From an uncultured Afifella sp. (GTDB lineage: Bacteria > Pseudomonadota > Alphaproteobacteria > Rhizobiales > Afifellaceae), in contig CALZIL010000014.1 in assembly GCA_945787495.1 (NCBI GenBank), forward strand, positions 1 through 40,184: DNA of 40,184 nt, read 5' to 3'. How positions within the stretch are numbered: the stretch's first letter is position 1; every line of letters begins with the position of its first letter. The position numbers and the translations under genes were made by a program. Below the pieces are notes generated by a model, which ran no database searches, was not told where the DNA came from, and saw only the letters and a list, made by a program, of their open reading frames with translations. Below, in pieces: positions 3,758 through 37,512 of this stretch.

Positions 3758-3787
3758 TGATCGCACGATCTATTACTGGTGCGATCA
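3758..3787. promoter_or_regulatory. Operator-like inverted repeat upstream of the ABC binding-protein gene
   Basis: TGATCGCAC, 12 intervening bases and GTGCGATCA form a perfect inverted repeat with 9-base arms, about 70 bases before the ATG of the sugar-binding protein at 3860. Arm length and spacing are compatible with a dimeric sugar-responsive regulator (GntR, LacI or similar). It is not followed by a T-run. I did not find a second copy in the window. Confidence 0.5.
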
Positions 3788-3859
3788 AAGCCGCGTGACG
3801 GTTCGTTTTGCGACGATACCAAGAAGCCCGATCAGATTTTATCATGGGAGGAAACGAAA

Positions 3860-4881: not shown

Positions 4882-5913
4882 ATGGCGATTGACACAAGGG
4901 GGGCGCCGGAAGTTGCTCCACCACCCCGGCAGTTCGACTTTGTGCAGTTCGCTGCGAAATATGCGGCGCCGCTGTTTCTGCTGTTGCTGGTCCTGGTCTT
5001 TTCGCTGCTGGAGCCGCGCTTCCTTCACCCGCTCAATCTGTTCAACATTCTGCGTCAGGTCTCGATTTCCGGGTTAATTGCAATCGGCATGACCTTCGTC
5101 ATCCTGACGGCCGGGATAGACCTTTCCATCGGTTCCCTGCTGGCGTTGTCCGGTCTTGTCGGTGCGTATGTTGCCAAGGGCGGCCTGGAAGACCGCTTTG
5201 CTGTCGGTGCCAGCGTCGATGCCGGCAATCCTGCATTGCTCGCAATGGCGGCGGCAATCGCTGTCGGGCTCATTGGCGGGGCGATACAAGGAACCGCGGT
5301 CACGCGGCTGCGCGTGCCGCCCTTTGTCGTTACGCTCGGCGGACTGACGGCCTTTCGCGGCGCGGCGCTCCTGTTCTCCGGTGGGGGACCGATAAGCGGA
5401 TTCGCGCCGGACTACACCTGGTGGGGCCAGGGCAAGATCGGCATTGTTCCGGTGCCCGTCATCATCTTCCTCGCATTTGCTGTATTCGCCCACATTGTGT
5501 TGAAATATTCGCGCTTTGGCATGCATGTCTTTGCAACCGGCGGCAATGTTGATGCGGCGGACCTGAACGGCGTGCCGACCAAACGCGTTATCTTTCTGGC
5601 CTATGTCATTATCGGATTCTTCTGCGGCCTGGCCGGCTTTTTGCTGTCGGCGCGCCTGAGTTCAGCCGAGGCTGTTGCCGGATTGGGGCTGGAACTGACC
5701 GTGATCGCCTCTGTGGTCATCGGCGGCACCAGCCTGTTTGGCGGGATCGGCAGCATATTCGGAACTGTTGTCGGCGCCTGTCTTATCGGCGTTTTGACGA
5801 ACGGGCTCGTCTTGCTCAACGTGTCGTCATTTGTTCAGCAGATCATCATTGGCGTGATTCTGGTTTCGGCTGTGGCCTTTGACCAGTTTGCCGCCGATCG
5901 CCGCAAGGCTTGA
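4882..5913 (+). CDS. Sugar ABC transporter permease (RbsC-like)
   Basis: A 343-residue inner-membrane permease of the ribose/xylose class (BPD_transp_2). Hydrophobic segments begin near residue 30 (PLFLLLLVLVFSLL). The hallmark GMTFVILTAGIDLSIGS block lies near residues 69-85, and TGGNVDAADLNGVPTKR, the cytoplasmic coupling-loop equivalent, near 220-235. The C-terminal half carries SVVIGGTSLFGGIGS. Length and topology (8-10 helices) are normal. It follows the binding-protein gene on the same strand. No ATPase gene follows; a convergent oxidoreductase begins beyond a 110-bp gap. The single-domain ATPase at 157-897 is the best candidate partner. The ribosome-binding site is weak, which with the upstream hairpin suggests low expression relative to the binding protein. 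Confidence 0.93.
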   Translation: MAIDTRGAPEVAPPPRQFDFVQFAAKYAAPLFLLLLVLVFSLLEPRFLHPLNLFNILRQVSISGLIAIGMTFVILTAGIDLSIGSLLALSGLVGAYVAKGGLEDRFAVGASVDAGNPALLAMAAAIAVGLIGGAIQGTAVTRLRVPPFVVTLGGLTAFRGAALLFSGGGPISGFAPDYTWWGQGKIGIVPVPVIIFLAFAVFAHIVLKYSRFGMHVFATGGNVDAADLNGVPTKRVIFLAYVIIGFFCGLAGFLLSARLSSAEAVAGLGLELTVIASVVIGGTSLFGGIGSIFGTVVGACLIGVLTNGLVLLNVSSFVQQIIIGVILVSAVAFDQFAADRRKA

Positions 5914-11321: not shown

Positions 11322-11715
11322 TCCCCCATTCGCGCGGCAAATTAATCCAGGATAGCACCGCCATTTGGAGCGCTGAGTTGAGCCTCGGTGTGCCCTGGCC
11401 GACGTGAGCCCAGATCGTGCCGCCGTATGCCATCGGCATTCTCGCGGTCTTCGGGGTCATTCAACGCACCGCCGTTTTTGAATATCAGCCTGACCCTATG
11501 CCTCCCTGTGGCAAGAAACGGACTCACAGGCGCCGTGCCAGAAACTTCTGCTTTCGGGCTCTAACCGGATATCAGTTAGCCGATGTCCGCTTTTCCATGA
11601 GTTCGATCTGCTTACGCGGGTAGACCGGGTTGAATATTGTGTAAACTCCTTTGTCGAATTGGCAGCCCGGCATGCCGGAGCCGCAGTCTTCAGGACGACG
11701 TTCGAGAGCAACAAG
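11322..11715. other. 394-bp intergenic region without a recognisable gene
   Basis: The space between the DapA-family gene and dgoK has no open frame with family resemblance. It contains GATGTCCGCTTTTCC at 11582-11596, a motif shared with two other intergenic spaces. On the minus strand a short frame reading VYTIFNPVYPRKQIELMEKR precedes a stop and might be the tail of a lost gene, but I cannot assign it. I see no clear terminator or promoter. Confidence 0.5.
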
Positions 11716-12645
11716 ATGACCGTTCCTGCATGGTGTTCAGCCGCGCTCGTGGCAGTGGACTGGGGCACTACCAATCGCCGTGGCTATTTGCTCGACGGCA
11801 ATGGAGCGATATTGGATGCACGAAAGGATGACCTCGGTCTTGTCAACGTAAAGGATGGCCGTTTTCAGGAGGCCTTCGAAATCCTTACCGCACCATGGAT
11901 CGAGACGTGTGGGGCGATGCCGGCATTGCTCTCCGGCATGGTCGGCGCGACCAAGGGGTGGACGGAAGCCCCTTATTGTCCACTGCCAGCCGGGCTAGAC
12001 GAATTGGCCGGATCTTTGGAACGGGCGCCATCGGACGATCAGATTTGGATTGTCCCCGGTGTTTCAACTCGTGATCGGATCGGTGTCGCCGATGTCATTC
12101 GGGGTGAGGAAATTCAGGCGATAGCCGCCGGCTGGCAAGACGACAGCTCCTTGATCGTCGTCCCCGGCACTCACAGTAAATGGGTTCATGTACGGGAAGG
12201 GCGCATCATCGAATTCACGACGTTCATGACCGGGGATTTATTTGGGGCGATCCTTAATCACACCGTGATATCGCAACTTCGCGTCAAGGATAGCATTGGT
12301 GATCAAAACGCCTTCGCGCTCGGTGTCGATGTCGGTTTTTCGCACAACGGAGAGCTCACCCACGTCCTTTTTGGCGCGAGAACCCGGGTCTTGTTCGGGG
12401 AATTGGCGCCTGATGCCGTATCCGACTACCTCTCAGGCTTGCTTATCGGCGCGGAAATAGCGGGCGCGCTTTCTGCCCATGGTCCTGATGTCTCCTCTGT
12501 AAAGCTGATAGGAAGCGAACACCTTTGCGAGACTTATCGCATGGCCCTTGAAAGTCGTGGCGCAAAAGTCAGCGTCGTGGGGCCTTGCGCAATAGGAAGA
12601 ATTTACGCGGATTTGGCAAAGCGGGCAGGTATCCTGAAAACCTAA
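11716..12645 (+). CDS. dgoK: 2-dehydro-3-deoxygalactonokinase
   Basis: A 309-residue sugar kinase of the DgoK family (ASKHA fold). The phosphate-1 motif is VAVDWGTTNRRGYLLD near the N-terminus. LLSGMVGATKGW, the VPGVSTRD segment, VVPGTHSKWV and FTTFMTGDLF are the family's signature blocks. It phosphorylates 2-keto-3-deoxy-D-galactonate at C6 in the cytoplasm, in the De Ley-Doudoroff route for galactonate. I start it at the ATG at 11716, because this puts the kinase motif about 13 residues from the start as in homologues; the longer frame from 11659 has no support. Its stop codon is 4 bp from the aldolase gene that uses its product, so the two are translationally linked. No galactonate dehydratase gene is nearby. 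Confidence 0.93.
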   Translation: MTVPAWCSAALVAVDWGTTNRRGYLLDGNGAILDARKDDLGLVNVKDGRFQEAFEILTAPWIETCGAMPALLSGMVGATKGWTEAPYCPLPAGLDELAGSLERAPSDDQIWIVPGVSTRDRIGVADVIRGEEIQAIAAGWQDDSSLIVVPGTHSKWVHVREGRIIEFTTFMTGDLFGAILNHTVISQLRVKDSIGDQNAFALGVDVGFSHNGELTHVLFGARTRVLFGELAPDAVSDYLSGLLIGAEIAGALSAHGPDVSSVKLIGSEHLCETYRMALESRGAKVSVVGPCAIGRIYADLAKRAGILKT

Positions 12646-12649
12646 AAGG

Positions 12650-13303
12650 ATGAGCATCGTGGATTGGAAATCGGCACTGACTCCCCTTCCTCTGATCGCC
12701 ATTCTTCGGGGACTTCGGCCGGAAAATGCCAGTAATATCATCGGAGCGCTTTGCGAGGCGGGCTTTGGTGCTGTTGAGGTCCCCCTCAACAGTCCGCAAC
12801 CGTTGAAGAGCATCGAGATTGCTGCACGGGAGTTCGCAGATGGCCTTCTCGTCGGCGCGGGCACGGTGCTGCGCCCAGACGATGTCCAGGGGGTGCGCGA
12901 AGCCGGAGGTCAGTTTGTCGTCAGTCCCAATACTGATCCAACGGTGATTACGGCAACGAAATCCCTGGGATTGTTGAGTGTGCCGGGGGTGAGTACGCCA
13001 AGCGAGGCTTTCACGGCATTGAAAGCTGGTGCCGATATCCTGAAGGCGTTCCCTGCCGAAGCCTTGCCGCCGAAAATCATTAAAGCCTGGCGGGCCGTTC
13101 TCCCGGAAGAAATATGGCTTCTGCCTGTTGGAGGCATCACGCCGGAGGCAATGGCGCCATACCTGGCGGTGGGCGCCGACGGCTTCGGTTTGGGGTCGTC
13201 TCTTTTTCGGCCGGAATTCACAGCAGTGGAGGTCTCCAAACACGCGCGATTGTTCGTGTCAGCTTACCGGTCGTTGATGGATCATCAATCCGACGCGCCC
13301 TAA
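12650..13303 (+). CDS. dgoA: 2-dehydro-3-deoxy-6-phosphogalactonate aldolase
   Basis: A 217-residue class I aldolase of the KDPG/KDPGal family. LIAILRGLRPENA (about 15-27) supplies the substrate-binding Arg. Glu43 lies in GAVEVPLNS, and Schiff-base Lys132 in ADILKAFPAE. LLPVGGITPE and GLGSSLFRP form the phosphate site. The PLNSPQP motif (rather than the TLRT of KDPG aldolases) and the adjacent dgoK favour the galacto-specific enzyme, which splits 2-keto-3-deoxy-6-phosphogalactonate to pyruvate and glyceraldehyde 3-phosphate. The start ATG overlaps the AAAGG ribosome-binding site region at the end of dgoK. A 172-bp gap with small hairpins separates it from the downstream ABC binding-protein gene, which may be part of the same operon. 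Confidence 0.94.
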   Translation: MSIVDWKSALTPLPLIAILRGLRPENASNIIGALCEAGFGAVEVPLNSPQPLKSIEIAAREFADGLLVGAGTVLRPDDVQGVREAGGQFVVSPNTDPTVITATKSLGLLSVPGVSTPSEAFTALKAGADILKAFPAEALPPKIIKAWRAVLPEEIWLLPVGGITPEAMAPYLAVGADGFGLGSSLFRPEFTAVEVSKHARLFVSAYRSLMDHQSDAP

Positions 13304-13475
13304 TTGGCAATATGAACAAAACCGCATTAGCATCATGGGCTGGAGTCCGTAGGGCTCCATCTTGCTTCCGGCGAAGATGGGCGGAAACGTGTAGCTGCGG
13401 TCCTGGAAGCAAATCACCCGGCAACACCTAAAACGCGGTGACCGGGATTAAATATACAAAGGGAGGACATTGATC

Positions 13476-14543
13476 ATGTCAGCGAAACAAACCTTCATCC
13501 TAGCGGCGGTTTGCAGTCTTTTCGCATCCGGCGCATTTGCACAAACCGGCATCCTGGACAAGGCGGTTGGCGGCTATACGTTTAAAGACGCCGCCATGGA
13601 AGCGCCCGATACCAAGAACTACAATTCGGCCGACGGCAAGTTAACATTCGCGATCGTCACACACACTGCGGGCAATGGCTTTTTCGATCCGGTATATACC
13701 GGCGCAAAGGTCGCGGCGGACCTCTTCGGCATCAATCTTATCATGCTCGGTTCCGAAGCGCCGGTTGACGACATTCCGCGTGAGATCGAGATTATCAACC
13801 AGGTCATTCAGGATCCGACAATCGACGGGCTGATCCTGACCACGCCCCAATCAGGCGCTTATGACGATATCGTCAAGAGCTTGCTTGACCGCGGCGTTCA
13901 TGTTGCAACCACAAATTCCTATGACGGTGCAATCTACAATCGTAACAGCATCAGCCATACCGGTCAGGACGCTTCGGCAGCGGCAATCGGCGGCGAAGCC
14001 ATGGCCAAGTGCATTCTGGATGGGGGCATCAGCGGCGGCACCATTGTCTTCCCGAACACAACGACGCTTGGCAATGTCGAGGTGAACAACCGCATCACGG
14101 CGGCGTTTGAGGCAACGGTCAAAGCCCTTAACGCTGCTGGCAAACTGGGTGATTTTGTTGTCGACGCCGGTCCGGAAAATATCGGCATTGACGTTGACAA
14201 GGACAATATCGTGGCCTCAGTCGCATCTCTCATTGAGTCACGCGGCGACGTGGTCGGCGCCTTTGCGGCCAACGGATTTGTCACGCCGGCACTGGGCAAT
14301 GCCATTGCGCAGCTGAATGCCGGCGACAAGATCTGCTCATTCGGATTTGATCTTGGACCGGCTCAGCAGGAGCAGATCAAGGCAGGCCATCTTGACGGGT
14401 CGCTTGGTCAGCAGCCCTTCTTGCAGGGATTTTGGCCGGTAGCGCAGCTCTATCTTGAAATCGACCGCGGCATTTCGGCGGCGAATTTGGACACGCGCGC
14501 CCAGCTGGTGACCAAAGAGGGCGTCCCCCTCCTTCTGATTTGA
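13476..14543 (+). CDS. Sugar ABC transporter periplasmic substrate-binding protein (second system)
   Basis: A 355-residue periplasmic binding protein of PBP type 1, with a signal peptide (MSAKQTFILAAVCSLFASG, cleavage probably after GAFA before QTG). Domain features include NGFFDPVYTGAKVAADLFG, PTIDGLILTTPQ, GVHVATTNSYDG, HTGQDASAAAIGG and FGFDLGPAQQEQIKAG. It is only distantly similar to the protein at 3860-4807, and carries an insertion after the signal peptide (about 30 residues before the first beta strand), so it probably binds another sugar. I use the ATG at 13476, 9 bases after GGGAGG, instead of the TTG at 13470. It heads a compact importer operon with a fused permease and an ATPase downstream, immediately after dgoK-dgoA, so galactose or a galactoside/galactonate precursor is a reasonable guess. 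Confidence 0.93.
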   Translation: MSAKQTFILAAVCSLFASGAFAQTGILDKAVGGYTFKDAAMEAPDTKNYNSADGKLTFAIVTHTAGNGFFDPVYTGAKVAADLFGINLIMLGSEAPVDDIPREIEIINQVIQDPTIDGLILTTPQSGAYDDIVKSLLDRGVHVATTNSYDGAIYNRNSISHTGQDASAAAIGGEAMAKCILDGGISGGTIVFPNTTTLGNVEVNNRITAAFEATVKALNAAGKLGDFVVDAGPENIGIDVDKDNIVASVASLIESRGDVVGAFAANGFVTPALGNAIAQLNAGDKICSFGFDLGPAQQEQIKAGHLDGSLGQQPFLQGFWPVAQLYLEIDRGISAANLDTRAQLVTKEGVPLLLI

Positions 14544-14601: not shown

Positions 14602-16893
14602 ATGAGCTGGCCTGTGACACACGCTTCAGAAGCCTCTCCCACGATCAGCATGGACCGCCAGCCCAATTCATTTTGGGGCGGATGGGAAATCGGTCTCGTG
14701 GTTTTGATGGTGTTGCTCTATATCGGCGGGGTTATGCTCAATCCGAGGTTTTTCGGATCGGCTGACGCCTTTCTTGCCATACTGCGGGATGCGGCACGCT
14801 TCGGCACAATGGCCGTCGGCATGTCATTTGTCATCGTTAACAAGGATCTCGACCTGTCGGTCGGTTCCACCTACGGCCTGGTGGCTATCGTATTCTCGAT
14901 GGTCTTCTCTCCCACGGTCTACGACCTGGGCGTCGTTCCAGCGATCGCGATCTGCGTTGCCGTCGGGATGGGTATTGGTTTGATCAACGGTGTTCTGGTC
15001 ACCTATCTCCAGGTGCCGTCCTTCATCGCTACGCTGACGATGTTGTTCATTGGGCGGGGCATGGTTCTCGCTCTCAGCGGCGGCAAGACCATCGGGTATG
15101 ACATCAAGGCGAAAAATTACGATATCTTCTCCATAGGCGAAACCAATGCGCTTGGTTTCAACAATCAAATTCTAATATTTATTGCCGTTGCCGCCATTGG
15201 TGCGATCGTCCTAGCCCGCACCCGCTGGGGATACGAAACCTTTGCCACCGGCGGTAACGCGCTCGCCGCCGATTATGCCGGTATTTCCACCAAGAAGGTG
15301 CGTATTCGCGCCTATATGATTTCGGCGCTTTGCGCCACGCTCGCCGGTCTGATGGCCATGGCCCAGGACAAGACTGTCACCAGCCAGTATGGTCTGGGAT
15401 ACGAACTCATCATCATCGCCTCGGTCATCGTCGGAGGCGCATCAATCCTGGGCGGGCGCGGGCGCGTCATCGGATCATGTCTTGGGGCGGTGCTGATCGT
15501 CGTGATCGACAAGGTACTGCGCGAAGGTGTGCCAATTCAGCGGGTGATCAAGATTGGCGATACCGAGATGGTCGTCAATGCCATGGCCCAGTTGCCGCCT
15601 GGCGCGGTGCCAGCGTTTCTGGGGATGATTTTGTTGTTCGCCGTGCTAATCGAGCCGGTACTGATCCGCGGGAAATTACTGGAGCGAATCCGGGCCAGAC
15701 TGACTGGAAAACCTGTACCGCCGGCGCCAGATATCGACAGCGTCGCGATTGAAGGCACGCAAACCTACGGTAGCCGAGCCAGCGCGCGCGCGATGCGCGT
15801 GAAGGGACTTGCTTCGTTTGTTCACAGGCGAGACGCAGCGGCCATCATTTTGATGGTCGGGCTGTGGACGGTCGGCTTCTGGTTGCGGCCCGATTTCTGG
15901 GGTTCGCTGGACAATTCCTTCAATCTGATGCTGGCATTCACCGAAGTCGGTTTCCTTTCCATTGGCCTGACATTTGTTATCGCCAATGGCGACATCGACC
16001 TTTCGGTTGGCGCCGTTTTAGCCCTGTCCGGCGCGACTGCCGCCTTTTTCATGAAAACGCTTGGGGCCGATCCGCTGCTGGCTGTGACAATCGCGTTTTT
16101 TGCAGGAACGCTGGCTGGCGTCGTCAATGGTGTGTTGGTTACGCGCTTTGCGCTGCCAGCCTTTGTCGCAACGCTCGGCATGTTTTACATGGCACGCGGT
16201 CTCGGCGCCTGGATGGTTGCCGGACGGCAATTGTCGGGCTTTCCTGAAGAGTTCAATCTTGTTGGTCGCAAGGTGATCGAACTTCTGCGTTATTTGGGAA
16301 TCGCACCGGAAAGCGGCTTGATCCACGACATAGCGGCGGCGGTCAGCGTGCAGTCCCTGATCATGTTCGCGATCGCGATCGCGGCTGGAATCGTGCTGGG
16401 CTTTACGCCAATCGGGCAGATGGTTCTGGCGACAGGGGGGAGCCGGCGCGCGGCCGATTATTCCGGCATCAATACCAATCGGGTGCGGTTCCGCGCATTG
16501 GTGTTTTCAGCCATGTGCGCCTCACTTGCCGGCATCATTTATATCGCGTTCTTCCGCAGCTTCAATCCGCAGGCAGGGCAGTTGCGCGAACTGGATGCGA
16601 TTGCTGCCGTGATCATCGGTGGTGGATCGATTTTCGGCGGCTACGGATCGATATTGGGCTCCCTTGCAGGCGCGGCGGTCATCGCGTTGATCCGTGCATT
16701 GCTGTCGTTGCAGATATTCCTTTCCGACGGTTCGTCTTTTGTGATGCCGCAGCACTGGGTCAGTGTCTTCATTGGTTTGATTCTTATCGCGGCTGTTCTT
16801 GGTGATATCTGGTTCCGCCAGAATCGCATCTTGAGTGTGATGGCAACAAGGCTCGGCCTGAAGCGCGCCGGGCCGGAGATTGACGATGATTAA
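14602..16893 (+). CDS. Fused double-domain sugar ABC permease
   Basis: A 763-residue inner-membrane protein made of two complete RbsC-type permease domains in tandem, about residues 25-350 and 415-745, joined by a charged linker (about 351-410). Each half carries its own copy of the family blocks: GMSFVIVNKDLDLSVGS and GLTFVIANGDIDLSVGA; TGGNALAADYAGISTKK and TGGSRRAADYSGINTNR; ASVIVGGASILGGRGRV and AAVIIGGGSIFGGYGSI. Normal members are about 330-350 residues and form a dimer, so this protein should be a covalent pseudo-dimer. The halves differ considerably in sequence, so the fusion is not a fresh duplication, and the frame is open throughout. The gene overlaps the start of the ATPase gene (GATGATTAA). 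The first ATG at 14602 is used; another Met lies 16 codons later. Confidence 0.92.
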   Translation: MSWPVTHASEASPTISMDRQPNSFWGGWEIGLVVLMVLLYIGGVMLNPRFFGSADAFLAILRDAARFGTMAVGMSFVIVNKDLDLSVGSTYGLVAIVFSMVFSPTVYDLGVVPAIAICVAVGMGIGLINGVLVTYLQVPSFIATLTMLFIGRGMVLALSGGKTIGYDIKAKNYDIFSIGETNALGFNNQILIFIAVAAIGAIVLARTRWGYETFATGGNALAADYAGISTKKVRIRAYMISALCATLAGLMAMAQDKTVTSQYGLGYELIIIASVIVGGASILGGRGRVIGSCLGAVLIVVIDKVLREGVPIQRVIKIGDTEMVVNAMAQLPPGAVPAFLGMILLFAVLIEPVLIRGKLLERIRARLTGKPVPPAPDIDSVAIEGTQTYGSRASARAMRVKGLASFVHRRDAAAIILMVGLWTVGFWLRPDFWGSLDNSFNLMLAFTEVGFLSIGLTFVIANGDIDLSVGAVLALSGATAAFFMKTLGADPLLAVTIAFFAGTLAGVVNGVLVTRFALPAFVATLGMFYMARGLGAWMVAGRQLSGFPEEFNLVGRKVIELLRYLGIAPESGLIHDIAAAVSVQSLIMFAIAIAAGIVLGFTPIGQMVLATGGSRRAADYSGINTNRVRFRALVFSAMCASLAGIIYIAFFRSFNPQAGQLRELDAIAAVIIGGGSIFGGYGSILGSLAGAAVIALIRALLSLQIFLSDGSSFVMPQHWVSVFIGLILIAAVLGDIWFRQNRILSVMATRLGLKRAGPEIDDD

Positions 16894-17692
16894 TCCTGGC
16901 AGTTCCTCAAGCATCGCCGAAACCGCAAACAGCAGCAGCGATTATATTATTGAGATGCGCAGCATCTCCAAGGCGTTCGGAGCTGTACGCGCCCTGCATA
17001 ACGTCAATTTCAATCTCCGGCCCGGGGAAATACTGGGCCTTGTCGGCGACAATTCGGCGGGCAAATCAACTTTGATGAAGTGTCTGACCGGCGCCTATCA
17101 GCGCGATGATGGCGACGTTCTGGTGGAAAACCAGTCGACCGATTTTTCCAATCCGCACGAAAGCCGCGACCGCGGAATTGAGATGATTTATCAGGATTTT
17201 GCTTTGTGCGGAAACATGGATGTCGGCCAGAACATTTTTCTGGGCCGCTGGCCGCGTAAGGGCTTCTTTCTGAACCGCCGAAAAATGTATGAAGATGCGT
17301 ATGCTGTGTTGCAACGCCTGAAGGTTGACGTCAATTCGGTCTATCAGAAGGTTGAAAGCCTTTCTGGCGGCCGACAGCAATCGGTGGCGATCGCACGGGC
17401 GATTTCATTTGAACCGAAGGTCGTCATTCTCGATGAGCCTACGGCCAATTTGTCAGTCATGGCGACCGAGCGTCTGCTTGAGACGATGCTGGAGCTGAAA
17501 AAGCACAATGTTGCGCAGGTTATCATCTCTCACAGGCTGACCGACATATTCCAGGTCGGCGACCGCGTTATGGTCCTCAAACGAGGCGAGAATGTCGGCG
17601 AACGGCTTGTGGCGGATACGACGGAACACGAAATCCTGGGAATTATCGTCTCCGGGACGCCTGAAAACGCGCAAAACGTCGAGACCGTTTGA
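16886..17692 (+). CDS. Sugar ABC transporter ATP-binding protein (second system, single domain)
   Basis: The ATPase subunit for the importer whose permease and binding protein precede it. It has 268 residues with one ABC domain: Walker A GDNSAGKST (about 54-62), Q-loop IYQDFALC, signature LSGGRQQ, Walker B VVILDEPTA and switch His in IISHR. It is FrcA-type and similar to the protein at 157-897, including the unusual short length for the class. The start is the ATG at 16886, which overlaps the permease stop codon and has GGAG 7 bases upstream; the TTG at 16880 has no room for a ribosome-binding site. With a fused permease, two copies of this single ATPase would complete the transporter. The gene ends 82 bp before a convergent dehydrogenase, with no clear terminator. 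Confidence 0.93.
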   Translation: MINPGSSSSIAETANSSSDYIIEMRSISKAFGAVRALHNVNFNLRPGEILGLVGDNSAGKSTLMKCLTGAYQRDDGDVLVENQSTDFSNPHESRDRGIEMIYQDFALCGNMDVGQNIFLGRWPRKGFFLNRRKMYEDAYAVLQRLKVDVNSVYQKVESLSGGRQQSVAIARAISFEPKVVILDEPTANLSVMATERLLETMLELKKHNVAQVIISHRLTDIFQVGDRVMVLKRGENVGERLVADTTEHEILGIIVSGTPENAQNVETV

Positions 17693-17774: not shown

Positions 17775-18536
17775 TTAAATCGATCCTGCCTCAACCATGT
17801 AGTTATTGGCCGTGCACATGGCGGCGTCGTCGGAGGCAAGAAAGAGCACCATGCGCGCGAGATAGACCGGCTCGATCAGGTCCGGCAGGCACTGCGACTC
17901 GCGTTGACGCTCAAGCGCCTCCGGCGTTGCCCAAAGTTCCTTCTGCCGCTCGGTCATTACCCAGCCTGGTACCACCGTGTTGACTCGAATGCGGTGCATT
18001 CCAAGATCGCGGGCGAAGGAGCGGGTCATGCCATGTACCCCGGCCTTGGACGTTGTGTAGACCGGCATGCCCCCGGAAGCTTCCCACCAGGAGTTGGAGC
18101 CAAAATTGACGATAGAGCCCTTGCCGGCGGCGATCATGCCGGGCGCCACCGCCTGGATGGCGAAGAACATGTGGCGCAGGTTTGTGGCAATGCGCTCGTC
18201 ATAGAAGTCGGGCGTCACGTCCTGCCATGCATGCCGGTCGTCGCGGGCGGCATTGTTGACCAAAACAGTCGCCGGCCCAAGGGCGGTTTCCAAGGCGGTA
18301 AAGGCACGCTTCAAGGCGTCTATGTCGCGCAGGTCGCAAGGCTCAAAACGAATATTGGTACCTTGCGTTTTCAGTTCAACGGCAAGCGCTTCACCACGCT
18401 CCGCGTCGATGTCGACGAAGCCGATTCGTGAACCCTGGGCGGCGAAGGCACGGACGATCTCCTCGCCGATACCTGACGCTCCGCCCGTGATGAAAACCAC
18501 CGTCTCATTCAGGCTCGGATAGACGGCAAAGGACAT
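17775..18536 (-). CDS. Short-chain sugar dehydrogenase (SDR family)
   Basis: A 253-residue NAD(P)-dependent classical SDR. The cofactor motif is TGGASGIG (17-24), an acidic residue in FVDID (about 40-44) favours NAD, the NNAA motif is near 94, and the catalytic residues are Ser147, Tyr160 and Lys164 (VYTTSK). The C-terminus is short and typical (AANNYMVEAG). Relatives of this kind oxidise L-rhamnose, L-fucose, D-galactose or L-arabinose to the 1,5- or 1,4-lactone. The SMP-30 lactonase gene about 240 bp away on the same strand would hydrolyse such a lactone, so sugar 1-dehydrogenase is my inference. The ATG at 18536 has GGGAG 8 bases upstream. It is convergent with the ABC operon that may import its substrate. 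Confidence 0.9.
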   Translation of the reverse strand: MSFAVYPSLNETVVFITGGASGIGEEIVRAFAAQGSRIGFVDIDAERGEALAVELKTQGTNIRFEPCDLRDIDALKRAFTALETALGPATVLVNNAARDDRHAWQDVTPDFYDERIATNLRHMFFAIQAVAPGMIAAGKGSIVNFGSNSWWEASGGMPVYTTSKAGVHGMTRSFARDLGMHRIRVNTVVPGWVMTERQKELWATPEALERQRESQCLPDLIEPVYLARMVLFLASDDAAMCTANNYMVEAGSI

Positions 18537-18689: not shown

Positions 18690-18779
18690 CGACGGAACGA
18701 GTGGCGCTTTGAGACCATGTCGAGACTTCGGATTTTGGCACCGAACCAACTTCCGGGGGCCTCCGGACGGCGCCCTTTC
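18612..18779 (+). repeat. Duplicated segment, copy D
   Basis: This stretch aligns with 2461-2635 of the opposite strand. It covers the relic gene end and then about 90 bases that lie beyond the stop codon in the other copy, including GAGACTTCGG and GGGCCTCCGGA. It fills most of the gap between the SDR gene and the SMP-30 gene and touches the last codons of the latter. Confidence 0.7.
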
Positions 18780-19674
18780 AAGGTCTTTGCGCACCTGTCG
18801 CCGCAACATAGACAGAGAACAGATACTCCGTTGCGGTGATGAACAGCCGGTTCCGTTTCGGACCTCCGAAAGTCAGGTTCGCGGCCATGGTCGGCAGGCG
18901 GATCTTGCCGAGCAGATCGCCTTCCGGCGAATAGCAATGGACCCCGTCTTGCGCGCTGGTCCAGACGTTTCCGTCGGTGTCGAGCCGGAAACCATCGGGA
19001 AGCCCGGGCGAAACCTCGGCGAATATTCGGTCGCGGGTTAGCCGGTTATCCGACGCAACATCGAAGGTGCGGATATGATGCGGCCCGTCAGGATCGTGGG
19101 TCACGCCGGAATCGGCGATGTAAAGAATCGACTCGTCGGGCGAAAACGCGATGCCGTTTGGCTTGACGAAATCATCGACCGCGATGCGGATTTCGCCGGT
19201 TTCTGGATCGACACGGAAAACGAAGCAACCGGCCTGCTCCTGCTCGCCTTTGTGCCCTTCATAGTCGCTCATGATGCCGTAGGTCGGATCGGTGAACCAG
19301 ATCGTGCCATCGGATTTGACGACCACGTCATTGGGCGAATTCAGGCGCTTGCCGTCATAGCCGTCGGCGATGACCGTAATTGTCCCGTCCGGCTCTGTGC
19401 GCGTGACAGAACGGCTCCCGTGCTCACAGGTCACGAGCCGGCCTTCCCGGTCGCGGGTATTGCCGTTCGCATAGCGGGAATCAGCGCGAAATACGTCGAC
19501 GCCGAGATCCGGGATCCAGCGAAGCATTCGGTTGTTCGGGATATCGCTCCACGCGAGAAAGCCGGCGTCGCCGAACCAGACGGGGCCCTCCGACCAGCGG
19601 CACTGGTCAAACAGAGTCTCGACCTTCGCCGTGGGTACCGTCAGTTGGTGCGCGACGGCCCGGCCCGAAACCAA
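18778..19674 (-). CDS. SMP-30/gluconolactonase-family sugar lactonase
   Basis: A six-bladed beta-propeller lactonase, 298 residues from the proposed start. Metal-site residues are visible: Glu in RWSEGPVW, Asn in LNSPNDVVV, Asn in VKPNGIAFSPDE and Asp in LPDGFRLD. WFTDPTYG and NVWTSAQDG are further family blocks. It opens aldonolactones to aldonic acids in the step after a sugar 1-dehydrogenase; the SDR gene downstream on the same strand is the likely supplier. I choose the TTG at 19674, which has GGAG 6 bases upstream; the open frame extends to an ATG at 19734, but those 20 residues have no family support. Its last codons run into duplicated segment D, so the C-terminal three or four residues may be of recent origin. 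Confidence 0.87.
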   Translation of the reverse strand: MVSGRAVAHQLTVPTAKVETLFDQCRWSEGPVWFGDAGFLAWSDIPNNRMLRWIPDLGVDVFRADSRYANGNTRDREGRLVTCEHGSRSVTRTEPDGTITVIADGYDGKRLNSPNDVVVKSDGTIWFTDPTYGIMSDYEGHKGEQEQAGCFVFRVDPETGEIRIAVDDFVKPNGIAFSPDESILYIADSGVTHDPDGPHHIRTFDVASDNRLTRDRIFAEVSPGLPDGFRLDTDGNVWTSAQDGVHCYSPEGDLLGKIRLPTMAANLTFGGPKRNRLFITATEYLFSVYVAATGAQRP

Positions 19675-19748
19675 ATGGTTCTCCGGCCCCCTGGATTCAT
19701 CACCTCTTTTACGACTTGCTGCCGCTTGCAACAACGATCACGGAAACA

Positions 19749-20547: not shown

Positions 20548-21356
20548 GGGCGTTGTCACGTTGTCAAACTGCAGTCGCGTGAATCTCGGGCGTCAACCTC
20601 TGCTCAAGCGGCAGCGGTTGCGGTCTGCCAGGTCCTTATTGCCTCGTTTCGAAACTGGCGTAATGTTCTTCGGGAAATAAGATGGCGTTGGACGTTGAAG
20701 GTGTTGTAGACGGCGGCATGGGTGGAGAGAAATCGCTGCGCTGATCCAGCCGATTTAAAACATTGCATTCGTCGTTCGCGTTGCCGAACTGGCAGATGAG
20801 AATTCTCCGCCCGATTGTTCTTCCTGCCACCAAAATCATGGTGCTTGGAAAGCCCCAGATCCTTCAGAGCAGCGCCATATGATGGCAGTTTGTCGGTGAT
20901 GAACGCATCAGGGACAAAGCTCTGTTTCTTCAACAAATTGCGCATCAGTTTCAGCGCGGCTGTTTTGTTTGGCCCGGATTGAGCCAGGATACCCAGCACT
21001 TCGCCTTCACTATCGACCGCACGCCATAGGTACATGCGCTTGCCATTGATCGACACGAACATCTCATCGAGGCGCCACCGGCCGTCTGGTCGAGGGCGCG
21101 TTGTCCTCAGTCTTCGGGCATAGGCCTGCCCAAACTTCAATGCCCAGCGCCGGACCGTTTCGCAGGAAACATCTATCCCCCGCTCAGCGAGCAGATCCTC
21201 GACATCACGGAAGCTCAGGGGAAACCGGAAATACAGCCAGACGGAGTGCTGAATGATCTCGGGCGGGAAGCGGTGGCGGCAATAGCTGATCTTTCTCATC
21301 CCGGGAGGCTAGTGGCTCGCCAGACCGAAGGCATCCGGTTTTATGTGACAGTTCCC
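20548..21356 (-). mobile_element. IS6-family insertion sequence
   Basis: An element of about 809 bp around a complete IS6-type transposase. The proposed ends are GGGCGTTGTCACGT (20548-20561) and, read inward from the other side, GGGAACTGTCACAT (complement of 21343-21356), which share 10 of 14 positions. Size and layout fit the family. The 8-bp flanks (GCGTCAGC and ATTTGAAC) do not match, so no target duplication remains, which suggests later recombination or that an end is misplaced. Confidence 0.65.
20604..21299 (-). CDS. IS6-family transposase
   Basis: A 231-residue DDE transposase, apparently intact. An N-terminal helix-turn-helix region (RFPPEIIQHSVWLYFRFPLS, then DVEDLLAERGIDVS and ETVRRWALKFG) binds the ends. 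The catalytic acids are Asp78 in WRLDEMFVSI, Asp136 in FITDKLPSY and Glu165 in NNRAENSHLP. The C-terminal HAAVYNTFNVQRHLISR block is typical of the alphaproteobacterial branch. It catalyses replicative, cointegrate-forming transposition. No passenger gene lies within the element. The start is the ATG at 21299. It separates the sugar-catabolic island from the purine block, and may have helped to join them. Confidence 0.93.
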   Translation of the reverse strand: MRKISYCRHRFPPEIIQHSVWLYFRFPLSFRDVEDLLAERGIDVSCETVRRWALKFGQAYARRLRTTRPRPDGRWRLDEMFVSINGKRMYLWRAVDSEGEVLGILAQSGPNKTAALKLMRNLLKKQSFVPDAFITDKLPSYGAALKDLGLSKHHDFGGRKNNRAENSHLPVRQRERRMQCFKSAGSAQRFLSTHAAVYNTFNVQRHLISRRTLRQFRNEAIRTWQTATAAA

Positions 21357-21661
21357 ATTTGAACACCCGACGCAAAATCGAGCCCTTTTTACCTTACGAA
21401 AAATCACTAAAGTGCACCATGAGCTCTTTGTTTAAGGCGGATAAGCCGCTCCCTCGGCGTTGACTTCCCGAGGTGTCAATTTCCGCGGGTGTCTACTCAC
21501 GGCGGTGACTGTGTCCGGTCTTTCTGCCATTATCGACCGCACCGTGAATATCACCAGGTTCAGAGTGTCGGGCAGACAGTCTTTCACGATCTGACGGTAT
21601 GGAGCGGGCGCAGCCGTTCCAGAAGCAAGTGAATCGGCTGTTCACAGGGGGAGAAAATCAA
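21357..21661. other. 305-bp intergenic region before the NCS2 permease
   Basis: No gene is visible between the insertion sequence end and the permease start. The stretch GACTTCCCGAGGTGTCAATT, followed by CGCGGGTGTCTACTCACGG, looks like debris of another mobile element, but I cannot identify it. The last 20 bases hold the strong ribosome-binding site GGGGGAG of the permease. I recognise no riboswitch or clear promoter. Confidence 0.45.
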
Positions 21662-23074
21662 ATGGCGACAGATACTTCAATCGGGACACTGGAACAACTC
21701 CGCGATCCCGAATACACGCCGCCCGTTGCCAAAGCGATACCGCTTGGGATCCAGCATATCCTGGCGATGTTCATCTCAAACGTCACGCCTGCGATCATCG
21801 TCGCCGGCGCCGCGGGGTTTGGATTTGGTTCGAATTCTCCAGACTTTCCCCAGCTAATCTACATGATTCAGATGTCGATGTTTTTTGCTGGCATCGCGAC
21901 TCTGTTCCAGACCATTGGATTCGGCCCGGTCGGTGCCAGGCTTCCCGTTGTGCAGGGCACCAGTTTCGCCTTCATTCCGATCATGATCCCTCTGGTGGCG
22001 GGCAAGGGTGTCGAGGCCCTCCCTGCGCTTTTCGGTGGTGTCCTCATCGGTGGTTTGTTTCACGCTCTTCTTGGTACCTTCATCGGCCGCATCCGTTTTG
22101 CCCTGCCGCCACTGGTGACCGGTCTGGTGGTGTTGATGATCGGGCTCGCCCTGGTGAAGGTCGGCATTCAATATGCGGCGGGCGGCATCCCGGCCATCGA
22201 CAAACCTGAATATGGCAGCTTGCAAAATTGGTTTGTGGCACTGGTCGTCATTCTGGCAACGCTGGGTCTGAAATTCTTTACGCGCGGCATGCTATCGGTT
22301 GCAGCAGTTTTGCTTGGCCTGATTGCCGGCTATGTCGTGGCGCTGGCACTTGGCATGGTAAGCTTCGGAAACGTGGGGAGGGCGGCGGCGTTTGCCGTGC
22401 CCGATCCCTTCCATTTCGGCTTTGAATTTAGTCTTGCTGCCGTGATCGGCTTTTGCCTGATGGCCTTCGTCTCTGCAGTCGAAACTGTGGGTGATGTTTC
22501 GGGCATAACGAAAGGTGGGGCCGGCCGCGAAGCGACCGACAAGGAGATCGTTGGCGCAACCTATGCGGACGGGCTTGGCACCGCGGTTGCCGGCGTATTT
22601 GGTGGATTGCCGAACACCTCCTTCAGCCAGAATGTCGGGCTGATAGCCATGACGGGCGTCATGAGCCGCCACGTGGTGACCATCGGTGCACTCTTCCTGA
22701 TCCTGGCTGGTTTGATCCCGAAAGTCGGGGCATTGATCTCGACAATTCCTATCGAAGTCCTCGGCGGCGGAGTTATCGTGATGTTCGGGATGGTTTGTGC
22801 TGCGGGCGTCTCCATGCTGTCAGATGTGGATTGGAACCGCCGCAATATGGTGATTTTCGCGGTTTCGCTCGCGGTCGGCCTTGGCCTGCAGCTGGAGCCC
22901 AAAGCGCTGCAATATCTGCCGGACACATTGCGTATCTTGATGACCTCTGGCCTTCTTCCAGCAGCCATCCTCGCAATTATCCTCAATCTCGTAATTCCGG
23001 AGGAACTTACCGACGAGCAGACCGAGGAGATCTCCGGCGGCCATGCGGGTCACAAACATGACGATCATGTCTGA
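21662..23074 (+). CDS. NCS2-family purine/urate permease
   Basis: A 470-residue inner-membrane nucleobase:cation symporter of the NCS2 (NAT) family with about 14 hydrophobic segments. Conserved blocks are QHILAMFISNVTPAI in TM1, VVQGTSFAFIP in TM3 (substrate site), AVETVGDVSGI in TM8 with its key Glu, and GLPNTSFSQNVGLI in TM10, the NAT signature region. The C-terminus is cytoplasmic and His-rich (GHAGHKHDDHV). This branch imports xanthine or urate in symport with protons. The E. coli ygfK-ssnA-ygfM-xdhD cluster also has NCS2 permeases for urate and xanthine beside it, which supports a purine. The start ATG at 21662 has GGGGGAG 8 bases upstream; an earlier in-frame ATG at 21599 is unlikely. 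No operon partner follows directly. Confidence 0.92.
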   Translation: MATDTSIGTLEQLRDPEYTPPVAKAIPLGIQHILAMFISNVTPAIIVAGAAGFGFGSNSPDFPQLIYMIQMSMFFAGIATLFQTIGFGPVGARLPVVQGTSFAFIPIMIPLVAGKGVEALPALFGGVLIGGLFHALLGTFIGRIRFALPPLVTGLVVLMIGLALVKVGIQYAAGGIPAIDKPEYGSLQNWFVALVVILATLGLKFFTRGMLSVAAVLLGLIAGYVVALALGMVSFGNVGRAAAFAVPDPFHFGFEFSLAAVIGFCLMAFVSAVETVGDVSGITKGGAGREATDKEIVGATYADGLGTAVAGVFGGLPNTSFSQNVGLIAMTGVMSRHVVTIGALFLILAGLIPKVGALISTIPIEVLGGGVIVMFGMVCAAGVSMLSDVDWNRRNMVIFAVSLAVGLGLQLEPKALQYLPDTLRILMTSGLLPAAILAIILNLVIPEELTDEQTEEISGGHAGHKHDDHV

Positions 23075-23223
23075 GCTGCAATTGAGGCGAATAATCTCCC
23101 GCCCAAAACAGGAGTAAATTTTTCGTTTTCGAGATATATGCCAGCCAGTATCTCGATACTAACCTGCATTCGGTGCAGAATGACCGCTTCTGGCACACAA
23201 CGGACATGGCCGGCTCGCCACAT

Positions 23224-23254
23224 GATGTCCGTTCCTGGGGGTGAAGCGGACATC
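23224..23254. repeat. Inverted repeat with ATGTCCGC motif in an intergenic remnant
   Basis: GATGTCCG, 15 bases and CGGACATC form a perfect 8-base inverted repeat inside the 268-bp space between the permease and the ACT-domain gene. Further copies of GGACAT are nearby (23204), and CTGCATTCGGTGCAG is another small palindrome (23164-23178). On the minus strand the right arm reads GATGTCCGCTTCACC, matching the motif at 2421-2435 and 11582-11596. The space looks like a degraded dispersed repeat; no gene is seen. Confidence 0.55.
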
Positions 23255-23342
23255 ACAAATGTGGTTGCCGACTTCCGAGTTTGACCCGGAACGGAAATGG
23301 GCATTGGTGTCAGGTCTTCCGAAGACAGTGCCCTGCCGACCG

Positions 23343-23756
23343 TCAGACGTCCAGCGCCTCGGCAGCCCGCTCGTACTCCTCGGGACGGACGTAGATGATA
23401 TAGCCGTAGCCGCCTCTCCCATCCGCCACCCCGGTGGAGGCGAACACATGCACGTTGGCATCGAGCAACTTCTCGTGGATATGGGCCAGCGCACCAACCT
23501 CGTCGTCTCCCTGCACGACCAGCGCCGGGTGCGGGCCGTCGAGCGGAATATTCGCCTGCTGGGCGGCGTGCTGCATCTTGGCGGTGTCATCGGGGAACAC
23601 GGTGAGCTGCGTGCGCGCGGGGCCGAAGGGAACCGCGGTTATGGCGACGAGATTGACACCTTGCTCCGCCAGTCCGGAGAGCACCTCGTACCCAAGCCCG
23701 GGAGATTCCGTGACCGTGATGTAGAAGTAGTCGATACGGCGAACTGTGAACGCCAT
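23343..23756 (-). CDS. Tandem ACT-domain protein, probable small-molecule sensor
   Basis: A 137-residue soluble protein made of two ACT-like ferredoxin folds. The first runs from about residue 5 (IDYFYITVTESPGLGYEVLSGLAEQGVNLVA pattern, with Gly-Leu-Gly at the ligand loop) to about 65, and the second from about 72 (ALVVQGDDEVGALAHIHEKL) to the end. There is no enzymatic domain and no DNA-binding motif. Stand-alone ACT proteins bind amino acids or similar ligands and regulate a partner. The gene is divergent from ygfK, with 321 bp between the starts, and next to the NCS2 permease, so I infer a role in sensing a purine-pathway intermediate or amino acid. The ATG at 23756 has GGAG just upstream; the longer frame to 23795 is less likely. 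Confidence 0.8.
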   Translation of the reverse strand: MAFTVRRIDYFYITVTESPGLGYEVLSGLAEQGVNLVAITAVPFGPARTQLTVFPDDTAKMQHAAQQANIPLDGPHPALVVQGDDEVGALAHIHEKLLDANVHVFASTGVADGRGGYGYIIYVRPEEYERAAEALDV

Positions 23757-24019
23757 GCTCCATTTCTCCCCTCGCGTGGAGGGCCTTGATTGCACCCAAT
23801 CCCGTGCGCGTCAACGTCCACTTGATGTCGACCAGACCCCGGGATGCGTACCGAGACGTGCCCATGGGAAGCTCCCGGGCGCATACTCGGTTCCATGTTT
23901 TGCCGTGTCTATGACCTGGATCAAAAAGTGGGACGTCGGCCGGCTCGTGAAAGCTTGACTTAGGTGAGTGAGGCTGCCGGCCACCCGGAGCGAGCGCCAT
24001 TATATAGGGATTGCAGCAT

Positions 24020-24037
24020 ATGCGTATATCTACGCAT
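24020..24037. promoter_or_regulatory. Operator-like palindrome upstream of ygfK
   Basis: ATGCGTATATCTACGCAT is an inverted repeat with perfect 7-base arms and a TATC centre, 40 bases upstream of the ygfK start codon in the 321-bp divergent space between the ACT-domain gene and ygfK. A TATATA stretch at 24001 is a possible -10 element. The position just upstream of the GAGGGAGG ribosome-binding site suits a repressor site. I see nothing else recognisable in this space. Confidence 0.5.
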
Positions 24038-24077
24038 CAGGTATTGAAGGTTCAATTCATGAGGGAGGCGGACGATT

Positions 24078-27000
24078 ATGTCTGAGCTGTTCCAACCGAT
24101 CGCTGCGGATCAGTTAGTCGCATGGGTGTTCTCTGAACTGGATACCCGCGATTCCGTTTTTGGTATTCCCCGCCAGCATTTCTACGTTCCCCGTGACGAT
24201 GCGCCGTATCGCACCAGCGCGTATGGCCATCCGCTCGAGACACCGTTCGGACCTGCGGCGGGGCCGCACTCCCAAATGGCGCAGAATATCGTCGCCGCCT
24301 GGCTGTGCGGCGCGCGCTACATTGAACTGAAAACAGTGCAGACGCTCGACGTCCTCGACGTATCGAAGCCTTGTATCGACATGGAGGACGAAGGCTACAA
24401 CGTCGAATGGTCGCAGGAGTTGAAGGTCCATCAGTCCTCCGACGAGTACCTGCGCGCCTGGGTGCTGATACACGCGTTGCACGACAAGCTCGGCTTCCCC
24501 GGCAACTCCCCGGGAATCGTTTTCAATCTCAGCGTCGGCTACAACCTCGACGGAATTCAGCAACCCAACATGCAGTGGTTCCTGGACCAGATGCAGGACA
24601 GTAGCGACTACAAACAGGCCGTTATCGATGAGGTTGCTCGCTTCCATCCCGGGGTCCGGGATGTGGAAATTCCGAATTGCCTCTCTGACAACGTCACGCT
24701 GTCAACGATGCACGGTTGTCCGCCTGGTGAGATTGAGAGCATCAGCAGCTATCTCTTGCGGGAACGTGGCCTGCACACGCTCGTGAAATGCAATCCAACG
24801 CTGCTCGGACCGGAGCGCGTGCGATCGATCCTCAATGACGACCTCAAGTACACGGACGTCGTGGTGCCGGACGCGGCGTTCGGGCACGACCTGAAGTATT
24901 CGGATGCCGTACCCATGATGCGAAATCTGCAGGCAGTCGCGAAGGATTGCGGTCTCGAATTCGGCGTGAAGCTCAGCAATACGCTCGAGGTCGAGAACTC
25001 GCGCGCCGTCTTCGACGCAGCCGAAAAGATGATGTACCTCTCGGGGCGAGCATTGCATCCGATTACCGTCAACCTTGCCCATGAACTCGCCGAAGAATTC
25101 GACGGTGAGCTGCCGATGTCTTTTTCGGCCGGAGCAAACTGTTTCAATGCACCGGCGCTGCTCGCTGCGGGCATGATGACAGTCACGACCTGCTCGGACC
25201 TGCTCAAGACCGGCGGCTACCTGCGTCTGCTGCAATACACGGAAAGTGCCACCGACGCGTTCAAACAACTTGGTTCGCAGAGCATGGATGCGTTCATCCT
25301 CAGTACGGCAGGAACCGACGCTGCTCTTGCGGACGTGAAGTCAGCCGCGAGACTCAACCTGCGCCGTTACGCAGAGCAGACACGCAGCGATGCGAAGTAC
25401 ATCAAAAGTACGTTCGACACAGCGCATACGAAGACATCACGCGAGCTGGAGATGTTCGATTGCATCAAGGCGCCTTGCGTTGATGAGTGCCCGTTGCAGC
25501 AGAAAGTCCCCGGCTACATGAACGCGGTGCGCGATGGTGATTTCGCGGCGGCTCTGGATGTCGTTCGCGAGGACAACCCCCTTCCTTGCGTACTCGGCCG
25601 CGTCTGTGACCATTTGTGTGAGCAGGTCTGTGTCCGGACCCATCTCGACGAGCCGTTAGCAATTCGCGACGTCAAACGATTCATCACCGACCGCGTGCAA
25701 AGACCTGCTGTTGAGCAGCCCGCAACGCGCACCGGCACCGGGGTCGCGATCATTGGTGCCGGCCCCGGCGGCATGGCGGCGGCAATCGAGCTGGCCGCGG
25801 CGGGTATCGATGTGGAAGTATTCGAGCAGCACTCCTACGGTGGCGGCATGGTTGGCGGAGCTGTACCCGAGTACCGGCTGCCGCAGGACGTGTTCGACCG
25901 CGACTTCGAGGTGCTTCGGGACCTTGGCGTGAAAGTCCACTATGGCATGCGGGCGGGGCGCGACTTCAGCCTCTCTGGGCTGCGCCGTGATGGCTTCGAG
26001 CAGATCGTCATCATGGTCGGGGCGCAGATCAGCAAGACGTTGGGCCTTGAGGGCGAAGACTGCGAAGGCGTGATGGATGCGCTGCAGTTGCTGCGGCGCT
26101 CCCGGGAAGGCAATCCGCTTGCGTTCGGCGAACGCGTCGGCGTCATCGGTGCCGGCGATACGGCTATGGACTGCGCGCGTGTCGCTCGACGTCATTCCGA
26201 CGGTGTGGTGAGCCTGATCTACCGCCGCACGATCGACCAGATGCCGGCCGACCGCGAGGAGGTAGAGCACTTACTCGAGGAAGGCATCGAAGTGCTCGAA
26301 CTGAGCAAGCCGCAGCGACTGGTCGTTGCGGATGGCAAGCTCAGGGCACTGATTTGCCGGCGCATGACCTTCAAAGGCAACCGCGATGCCTCGGGCCGCA
26401 AGATTCCGCACGAGGTGGCCGACGCTGACTTCGAGGTGCCGCTGGACACGCTGATCCTCGCAATCAGTCAGCACGCGGTTCTAGATTTCTTCGGTGACGA
26501 GCCGATCGTCCTCAATGACCGCGGCTATATCGCCGTGGACCCGGTAAACTTCGAGACCTCGGTCCCTGGCGTCTATGCCGGTGGCGACGTGGCTAATGAC
26601 GGGCCCGCATCGATCGTCAAGGCGGCGGCGGCGGGCAAGGCCATCGCAAACAGCATCCTGCGGCGCACTTCGTCCACAGCCGAAGCGGTGGCGGCCGCGA
26701 TCGATCCCGCAGCGTTGCAGCTGCGGCGCGGTCACCGCGAATGGCGCGTCCCAGCGCCGCGAACGCCGCTCGATGAGCGCCACGACTTCCGCGAGGTGGT
26801 CCTGACCTACGACGAGCAGCAGGCTCGCAGAGAGGCTGCGCGCTGCCTGGAATGTGATACCTACTGCAGCCTTTGCGTGGGAGTTTGCCCGAACCTAGCG
26901 CTAATGACCTACGAGACCGATCCGGGCAATGGGCCTGTGCGACAGCCGTTCCAGGTTGCGGTACTCGCCGATCTCTGCAACGAGTGCGGCAACTGCACGA

Positions 27001-27311: not shown

Positions 27312-27367
27312 CCACGACCGATCCGGGCCCTTCGCGGGGTTATTTTCAATAAAAAGAGACTGTTACG

Positions 27368-28684: not shown

Positions 28685-28689
28685 ACACA

Positions 28690-32366: not shown

Positions 32367-32496
32367 ACCTGGTACCTGAAATCCGCGAGGATGTTCTGAA
32401 AAAGAGCATCGCGCGGCCGCCGTCCTGATCAGACCGAGTAGGTTGCCGCACAGGAGCCATCGTAGTCGCTGATGCGGACCGCACCAGGCCGACCCA

Positions 32497-33975: not shown

Positions 33976-34010
33976 GGCCCGACCTCTCTGGTTGGTTTTA
34001 CTTGGTGGCG

Positions 34011-34934: not shown

Positions 34935-34944
34935 CTATGCTGTC

Positions 34945-37412: not shown

Positions 37413-37450
37413 TGTGGCGATGTCTGATTTCGATATGTCTGCAATATCTG

Positions 37451-37485
37451 AAAAAGAGGCCGGCCCACCGCAGCGGGCTGGCCTC
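37451..37485 (-). terminator. Intrinsic terminator or attenuator between dctP and dpaL
   Basis: On the minus strand GAGGCCAGCCC and GGGCCGGCCTC form an 11-bp stem with one G-T pair and an 8-base loop, followed directly by five T. It lies 27 bases after the dctP stop codon and 38 bases before the dpaL start. Partial readthrough would yield more binding protein than enzymes; full termination would require a separate dpaL promoter. Confidence 0.75.
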
Positions 37486-37512
37486 AGGGTGTGTAATTCA
37501 CCGGTGTGTGCG

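Follow-up and report, generated by a model that had tools for sequence, protein, structure and literature searches.

A CUT2-type sugar importer whose permease carries two diverged domains in a single chain

In importers of the CUT2 family, a two-lobed binding protein present in one copy must fit a membrane part that is roughly two-fold symmetric. The locus described here lies in a window of 40,184 nucleotides (the whole stretch of DNA that was analysed) from an uncultured Afifella sp., and it encodes this membrane part as one chain with two unequal halves. An earlier note on this DNA had read a frame of 763 codons as two RbsC-type permease domains joined by a charged linker. The features of this frame are given below; helix limits come from the predicted model, and membrane sides were inferred from the helix count and the positive-inside rule.

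14602..16893, forward strand: fused double-domain RbsC-type (CUT2) permease of 763 aa with about 20 transmembrane helices (frame, domain models and predicted structure)
14680..15669, forward strand: N half, a ten-helix permease domain, residues 27-356 (domain and helix limits)
15523..15603, forward strand: N-half periplasmic insertion, a predicted beta-hairpin, residues 308-334 (predicted model and segment lengths)
15670..15834, forward strand: cytoplasmic linker, residues 357-411, basic and partly disordered (model and alignment)
15835..16821, forward strand: C half, a ten-helix permease domain, residues 412-740 (domain and helix limits)
16219..16347, forward strand: C-half periplasmic insertion, predicted to be helical, residues 540-582 (predicted model and segment lengths)

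The frame is single and intact from ATG to TAA, and Pfam PF02653 (BPD_transp_2) matches the protein twice along its length, with 247.7 bits and above the cut-off. The ribose permease model NF007067 likewise aligns in two stretches, under the RbsC equivalog cut-off, while no Pfam family besides PF02653 was matched at E <= 0.001 and the FhuB siderophore permease family gave no match. Together with the Peripla_BP_4 binding protein encoded in the same operon, membership of the BPD_transp_2/RbsC family places the system in CUT2. As each half has ten helices and both of its ends on the cytoplasmic side, the halves could be joined through a cytoplasmic linker. The linker is 54-56 residues long in all 31 aligned family members and carries 8-14 Lys/Arg against 2-6 Asp/Glu; being basic, it would be cytoplasmic by the positive-inside rule, and its residues 379-397 have pLDDT values below 50 in the predicted model. 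Both the two-domain frame and the charged linker of the earlier note are thus borne out.

The source is a draft assembly of 432 contigs, and two plasmid relatives are frame-broken, so two adjacent genes might have been joined by an error of assembly or sequencing. However, the homologue count that the earlier note had proposed found the complete fusion in one frame at 28 of 33 loci in named genomes (28 loci in 27 genomes), with 60-70% identity, and the same frame is present in proteins annotated in RefSeq. This recurrence in relatives already refutes a join, to which we give practically no credence. The remaining five loci consist of three cut by contig ends (L035, L037, and L040) and two distant single-domain relatives (L039 and L041). 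Two of the loci, L027 and L028, both on CP051235.1, show the same layout with a fused permease near both ends of a 3.3-Mb contig, and they probably represent the uncut overlap of a circular chromosome.

A search of plasmids matched 124 of 72,556 records at E <= 1e-30, and 36 of these cover at least 80% of the query. Thirty-five come from Rhizobium, Sinorhizobium, Ensifer, and Phyllobacterium, with 58-62% identity; in the remaining record, at 29% identity, two separate permease genes adjoin a double-NBD ATPase. Among the 35 rhizobial copies, 33 match in one piece, a statement about the continuity of the match in which stop codons were not checked singly, and two are frame-broken, one near residues 370 and 524 and the other near 210-231, 452, and 592. 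Intact copies are annotated in the databases simply as permeases (for example, RefSeq WP_027667209.1). Counting the window's own genome, sampling found the fusion in 7 of 199 genomes within the order, in 2 of 289 within the class, and in 3 of 398 within the phylum. The fused permease is therefore real, a conserved yet uncommon variant of a well-known pump type in soil and water bacteria.

Two permease domains in one frame were seen only in this family among the loci examined. Long frames around other relatives yielded no further double-permease fusion; the one at L077:1-2493 is instead an NBD-NBD-permease fusion, in one frame of at least 830 aa with an open 5' end and a second permease domain just downstream. 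A candidate second fusion in the window's genome, a 697-aa 'open frame' on contig 105 taken as a fused LivHM, proved to be two genes in tandem, separated by a stop codon.

Separate-gene orthologues of each half, the other check that the earlier note had suggested, were then sought with either half as the query. Fused copies were recovered at 59-73% identity. If the opposite halves of the fused proteins themselves are disregarded, the following matches among those listed reached at most 45%, and none of the listed matches looks like a separate-gene orthologue of the N or C half; at most 9 or 10 candidates were scored per genome, so that a divergent half could escape. In a tree of 151 permease domains, all 34 N halves form one group and all 34 C halves another, and the two groups are joined to each other, although the program warns that joins between long lead branches may be false. 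A slower tree of 88 domains, built from 10 of the 34 fused loci and 68 unfused domains (the domains of L001, L004, L005, L007, L044, L046, L058, L059, L041, L035, and L037 being left out), gives support (bootstrap/SH-aLRT) of 100/100 for the N clade, 100/100 for the C clade, each of which takes in 10 of 10 halves, and 100/98 for the two together. Less certain are the sisters of this joint group, the unfused permeases of L003 and L096 (97/72), both of which have single-NBD partners. Since the N and C halves are sisters, a joining of two different permease genes is not supported, with the reservation that both lead branches are long; the simplest reading of the trees is a single duplication and fusion without later splitting. 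The lead branches of the N and C clades measure 0.99 and 0.66 changes per column, a sum of about 1.6 compared to a median end branch of 0.17, and the split between the halves is old.

The gene that follows the permease encodes its presumed motor.

16880..17692, forward strand: single-NBD ATPase, starting at TTG 16880 or ATG 16886 (frame and Pfam)

Both candidate starts overlap the permease stop codon (16891-16893), suggesting that permease and ATPase are probably translationally coupled. In all 28 complete fused loci of the named genomes, the permease is immediately followed by an ATPase with a single nucleotide-binding domain (NBD), and each of the 33 complete partner domains has Walker A, Q-loop, signature, Walker B, and H-loop. 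A chain with two NBDs, the trait of E. coli RbsABC, is absent. Thirty-five partner ATPases, namely these 33 and those of the cut loci L037 and L040, form one clade with support of 100 in a tree that includes the window's own. With a support of 86, which is not strong, this clade is placed together with 16 further CUT2 ATPases that have a single NBD, and the first NBDs of double-NBD proteins stand next to them (97). All 33 complete partners have GDNSAGKST as their Walker A sequence; among 30 other single-NBD rows, 15 have GDNGAGKST and two have the Ser form, and these two probably stem from the cut loci L037 and L040 of the same family. GDNSAGKST is a signature of the partner-ATPase family.

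Single-NBD ATPases also adjoin unfused CUT2 permeases. The window itself contains a second single-NBD CUT2 ATPase at 157-897 on the reverse strand, next to which the contig has no permease on that strand. It also encodes, at 3779-4807 and 4882-5913 on the forward strand, an unfused CUT2 permease together with a binding protein. At L019:4672-5274, in a metagenome assembly, the ATPase beside a fused permease is missing a mid-domain stretch at model positions of about 122-177, which may be either a real loss or an assembly error.

The predicted structure of the fused chain has pLDDT 80.1 and pTM 0.81. Sequence searches returned no solved relative of the fused permease at E <= 0.001, nor any of E. 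coli RbsC at E <= 0.01. FhuB (7lb8_B) was the sole PDB match of the model at E <= 0.001 in Foldseek, with a poor superposition (TM 0.42-0.49, rmsd 16.5). A second aligner matched residues 22..736 of the model, spanning both halves, to FhuB with Z 13.6 and rmsd 5.8 over 513 residues, a score within the range, up to about 13-14, in which it warns that helical models may share only a common arrangement. The single-domain type II importer chains BtuC, HmuU, and a metal-chelate permease scored Z 14.3-15.8, above FhuB, with only one half covered; among matches that span both halves, FhuB ranks first.

Like the fused permease model, FhuB of E. coli FhuCDB (PDB 7lb8) has two ten-helix halves in one chain and a single-NBD ATPase as partner. 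According to its structural description, the two halves of the 20-helix FhuB chain enclose a central path and are linked on the cytosolic side through a loop of about 24 residues, and the chain is served by two FhuC and one binding protein; the C-lobe of the binding protein docks on the N half of FhuB, and the N-lobe goes with the C half (PMC8660799). FhuB differs from the fused CUT2 permease in its siderophore cargo, in sharing only 10-12% identity in structural alignments, and in the length of the loop (about 24 residues compared to 54-56).

We consider it probable that the locus encodes a CUT2 importer whose permease gene was duplicated, fused via a cytoplasmic linker, and then diverged into halves specialised for docking. 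One binding protein would hand the sugar, an aldose of the galactose or arabinose type, to the single 20-helix chain, and import would be powered by the single-NBD ATPase, present twice and with all of its ATP-site motifs, giving one permease, two ATPases, and one binding protein. By analogy with FhuCDB, the sugar-binding protein probably places one lobe on each half; docking of each of the two unlike lobes on its own half would leave one productive orientation, while the cytoplasmic side would retain a near two-fold symmetry that suits two identical ATPases.

The distribution of differences between the halves bears on this proposal. In the window's protein, 9 of the 63 aligned periplasmic positions carry the same residue in the N and C halves, compared to 74 of 204 in the membrane and 25 of 46 on the cytoplasmic side. 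Across 33 proteins, 43 columns are at least 90% conserved within each half yet different between the halves (36 with two different residues and 7 with a residue opposite a gap), which supports the earlier note's claim of divergent halves in a permanently heterodimeric RbsC-type permease. Among positions conserved to at least 90% in both halves, the numbers that are the same and different between the halves are 23 and 4 on the cytoplasmic side, 36 and 24 in the membrane, and 5 and 8 on the periplasmic side; the contrast between the cytoplasmic and periplasmic sides gives a Fisher p of 0.008, with positions that are not independent. Pairs of N and C halves share an identity of 0.176 in periplasmic and 0.572 in cytoplasmic regions, compared to 0.249 (sd 0.061) and 0.54 in unfused pairs of similar overall identity, so that the periplasmic value lies little more than one sd under the control, and the pairs are not independent. 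The unfused controls are permeases found by their likeness to the halves together with E. coli and plasmid ones, and are not a random sample.

Periplasmic gap columns number 38 in N-C pairs compared to 11 (sd 9.7) in unfused pairs, because there are two insertions, one per half; the halves aligned with unfused permeases have 31 and 33, about as many as half against half. Segment 303-338 of the N half has 36 residues in 33 of 33 N halves, compared to 20-25 in C halves and 16-19 in all 68 unfused permeases. Segment 536-587 of the C half has 51-53 residues in 33 of 33 C halves and 37-39 in N halves, and the matching segment has 32-42 residues in 62 of the 68 unfused permeases and 49-70 in the other six. 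Periplasmic loops, however, diverge fastest in any permease pair, and only the insertions stand out in the contrast between the halves.

These differences could be explained without docking if the fusion merely secured equal amounts and assembly of the two domains, and the halves then drifted neutrally while keeping the same tasks. Two-gene CUT2 permeases such as YtfT/YjfF and LsrC/LsrD are ordinary, and six neighbouring-gene pairs that include these two have membrane parts at least as different as the two halves, without any fusion. However, the 36 positions are fixed as different residues in at least 90% of each half across the 33 proteins, and each half retains its own periplasmic insertion of near-constant length, with 2-9 periplasmic gap columns in the six two-gene pairs compared to the 38 seen here. 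For these fixed differences and near-constant insertions neutral drift would hardly suffice, and we regard it as an unlikely account.

The earlier note had instead proposed that the asymmetry serves the path of the cargo, in that the halves line one pore and offer the sugar different contacts. Membrane segments, which form most of the protein, do hold 24 of the 36 residue-for-residue fixed differences, but fixed positions that are shared outnumber those that differ there, which is reversed on the periplasmic side; furthermore, specificity in CUT2 importers is generally ascribed to the binding protein. Of that proposal, the consistent difference between the halves stands, while asymmetric substrate recognition is the poorer fit, since the halves contrast most sharply on the periplasmic side, on which the binding protein docks, and asymmetric docking is the better reading. 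We think a role in the cargo path improbable, somewhat more so than drift. The fixed difference being greatest at the periplasmic face, specialisation of each half for one lobe of the binding protein is what we infer.

The cargo was approached through the neighbouring genes.

11659..12645, forward strand: 2-keto-3-deoxygalactonokinase, DgoK type (PF05035)
12650..13303, forward strand: 2-dehydro-3-deoxy-6-phosphogalactonate aldolase, DgoA type (NF006600, above cut-off)
13470..14543, forward strand: periplasmic sugar-binding protein (Peripla_BP_4), frame of 357 aa (Pfam)
17775..18536, reverse strand: SDR aldose dehydrogenase (best NCBIfam match D-xylose 1-dehydrogenase, below the model's cut-off)
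18778..19734, reverse strand: SMP-30/gluconolactonase-type lactonase (PF08450)

The operon runs in the order binding protein, fused permease, ATPase, with the DgoK- and DgoA-type genes upstream and the SDR and SMP-30 genes downstream on the opposite strand. A relative of the binding protein lies upstream in 27 of the 28 fused loci in named genomes, the 28th being cut by the contig start. Neighbour families were assigned by searching 18 different flanking genes with Pfam as representatives, and the others via clustering. In only three of the 28 loci (L022, L033, and L034) is the fused operon accompanied, as in the window, by genes related to DgoK, DgoA, and the SDR. L033 also has GguC, L010 has a gene of galactose-mutarotase type with a same-cluster gene in L020, and the SMP-30 lactonase of L011 represents a cluster found in eight loci. 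An Ensifer plasmid copy is accompanied by an aldose 1-epimerase, an SDR, and a gene of the fumarylacetoacetate-hydrolase family, and no sugar-oxidising genes were found near two other annotated plasmid copies. Solved structures were set aside as a guide to the cargo, the matches of the binding protein to known structures being too weak (best 2.8e-14). Judged from gene context, an aldose of the D-galactose or L-arabinose type that enters an oxidative route is the most likely cargo, with the pathway assigned from the general roles of DgoK and DgoA. The imported aldose would be oxidised to a lactone and then degraded by the neighbouring enzymes.

Beyond the sugar operon, an IS6 transposase at 20604-21299 precedes a purine-type region at 21599-37535. 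This region has genes for a xanthine permease, for YgfK and SsnA, and for a xanthine dehydrogenase close to the selenium-dependent type (below the model's cut-off), and after them, on the opposite strand, genes of allantoate-amidohydrolase and diaminopropionate-ammonia-lyase types. It resembles the ygfK-ssnA purine region of E. coli.

Among known sugar importers, RbsABC of E. coli has the same permease family and the same kind of binding protein, but RbsC is a single domain of 321 aa and RbsA a double NBD of 501 aa, so that the fusion lies in the ATPase, and here in the permease. YtfQRT-YjfF and LsrACDB of E. coli also build a CUT2 permease from two different homologues, although from two separate permease genes and with a double-NBD ATPase. 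Closer in their ATPases, which belong to neighbouring clades, are CUT2 importers with a single-NBD ATPase and a permease of the same superfamily; several occur in the window's genome, and they differ in that their permease is one unfused domain. These importers are of the FrcBCA type. In an inventory of Brucella, the monosaccharide systems are given as ABC2 plus IM (PMC2821768). Work on B. subtilis describes RbsA and NupO as double NBDs with one site degenerate, models RbsAC2B with one degenerate ATP site, and calls the role of NBD fusion unclear (PMC11466899). No description of a fused RbsC-type permease was found in the open-access literature searched, including the available portions of PMC2821768, PMC10191376, PMC11466899, and PMC8660799, and with the subscription literature mostly outside the search; as far as the open-access literature shows, the fused CUT2 permease is new as a description, with FhuB as a structural precedent in another family.

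Whether the asymmetry has been moved across the complex, from the fused and unequal ATPase pair that drives a symmetric permease in RbsC2-RbsA to a fused unequal permease with two identical complete-site ATPases, and with half-specific periplasmic insertions that fix the docking orientation, is in our judgement evenly balanced. If true, the moved asymmetry would provide a natural test of whether an importer of this kind needs one built-in asymmetry, and whether the side of the membrane on which it lies is relevant. In RbsA-type systems the inequality sits within the fused ATPase; a related lineage with equal ATPases and a fused permease would allow the asymmetry of the ATPase to be told apart from that of the permease. 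The fused chain would also offer a covalent RbsC-type permease of fixed stoichiometry for structural work.
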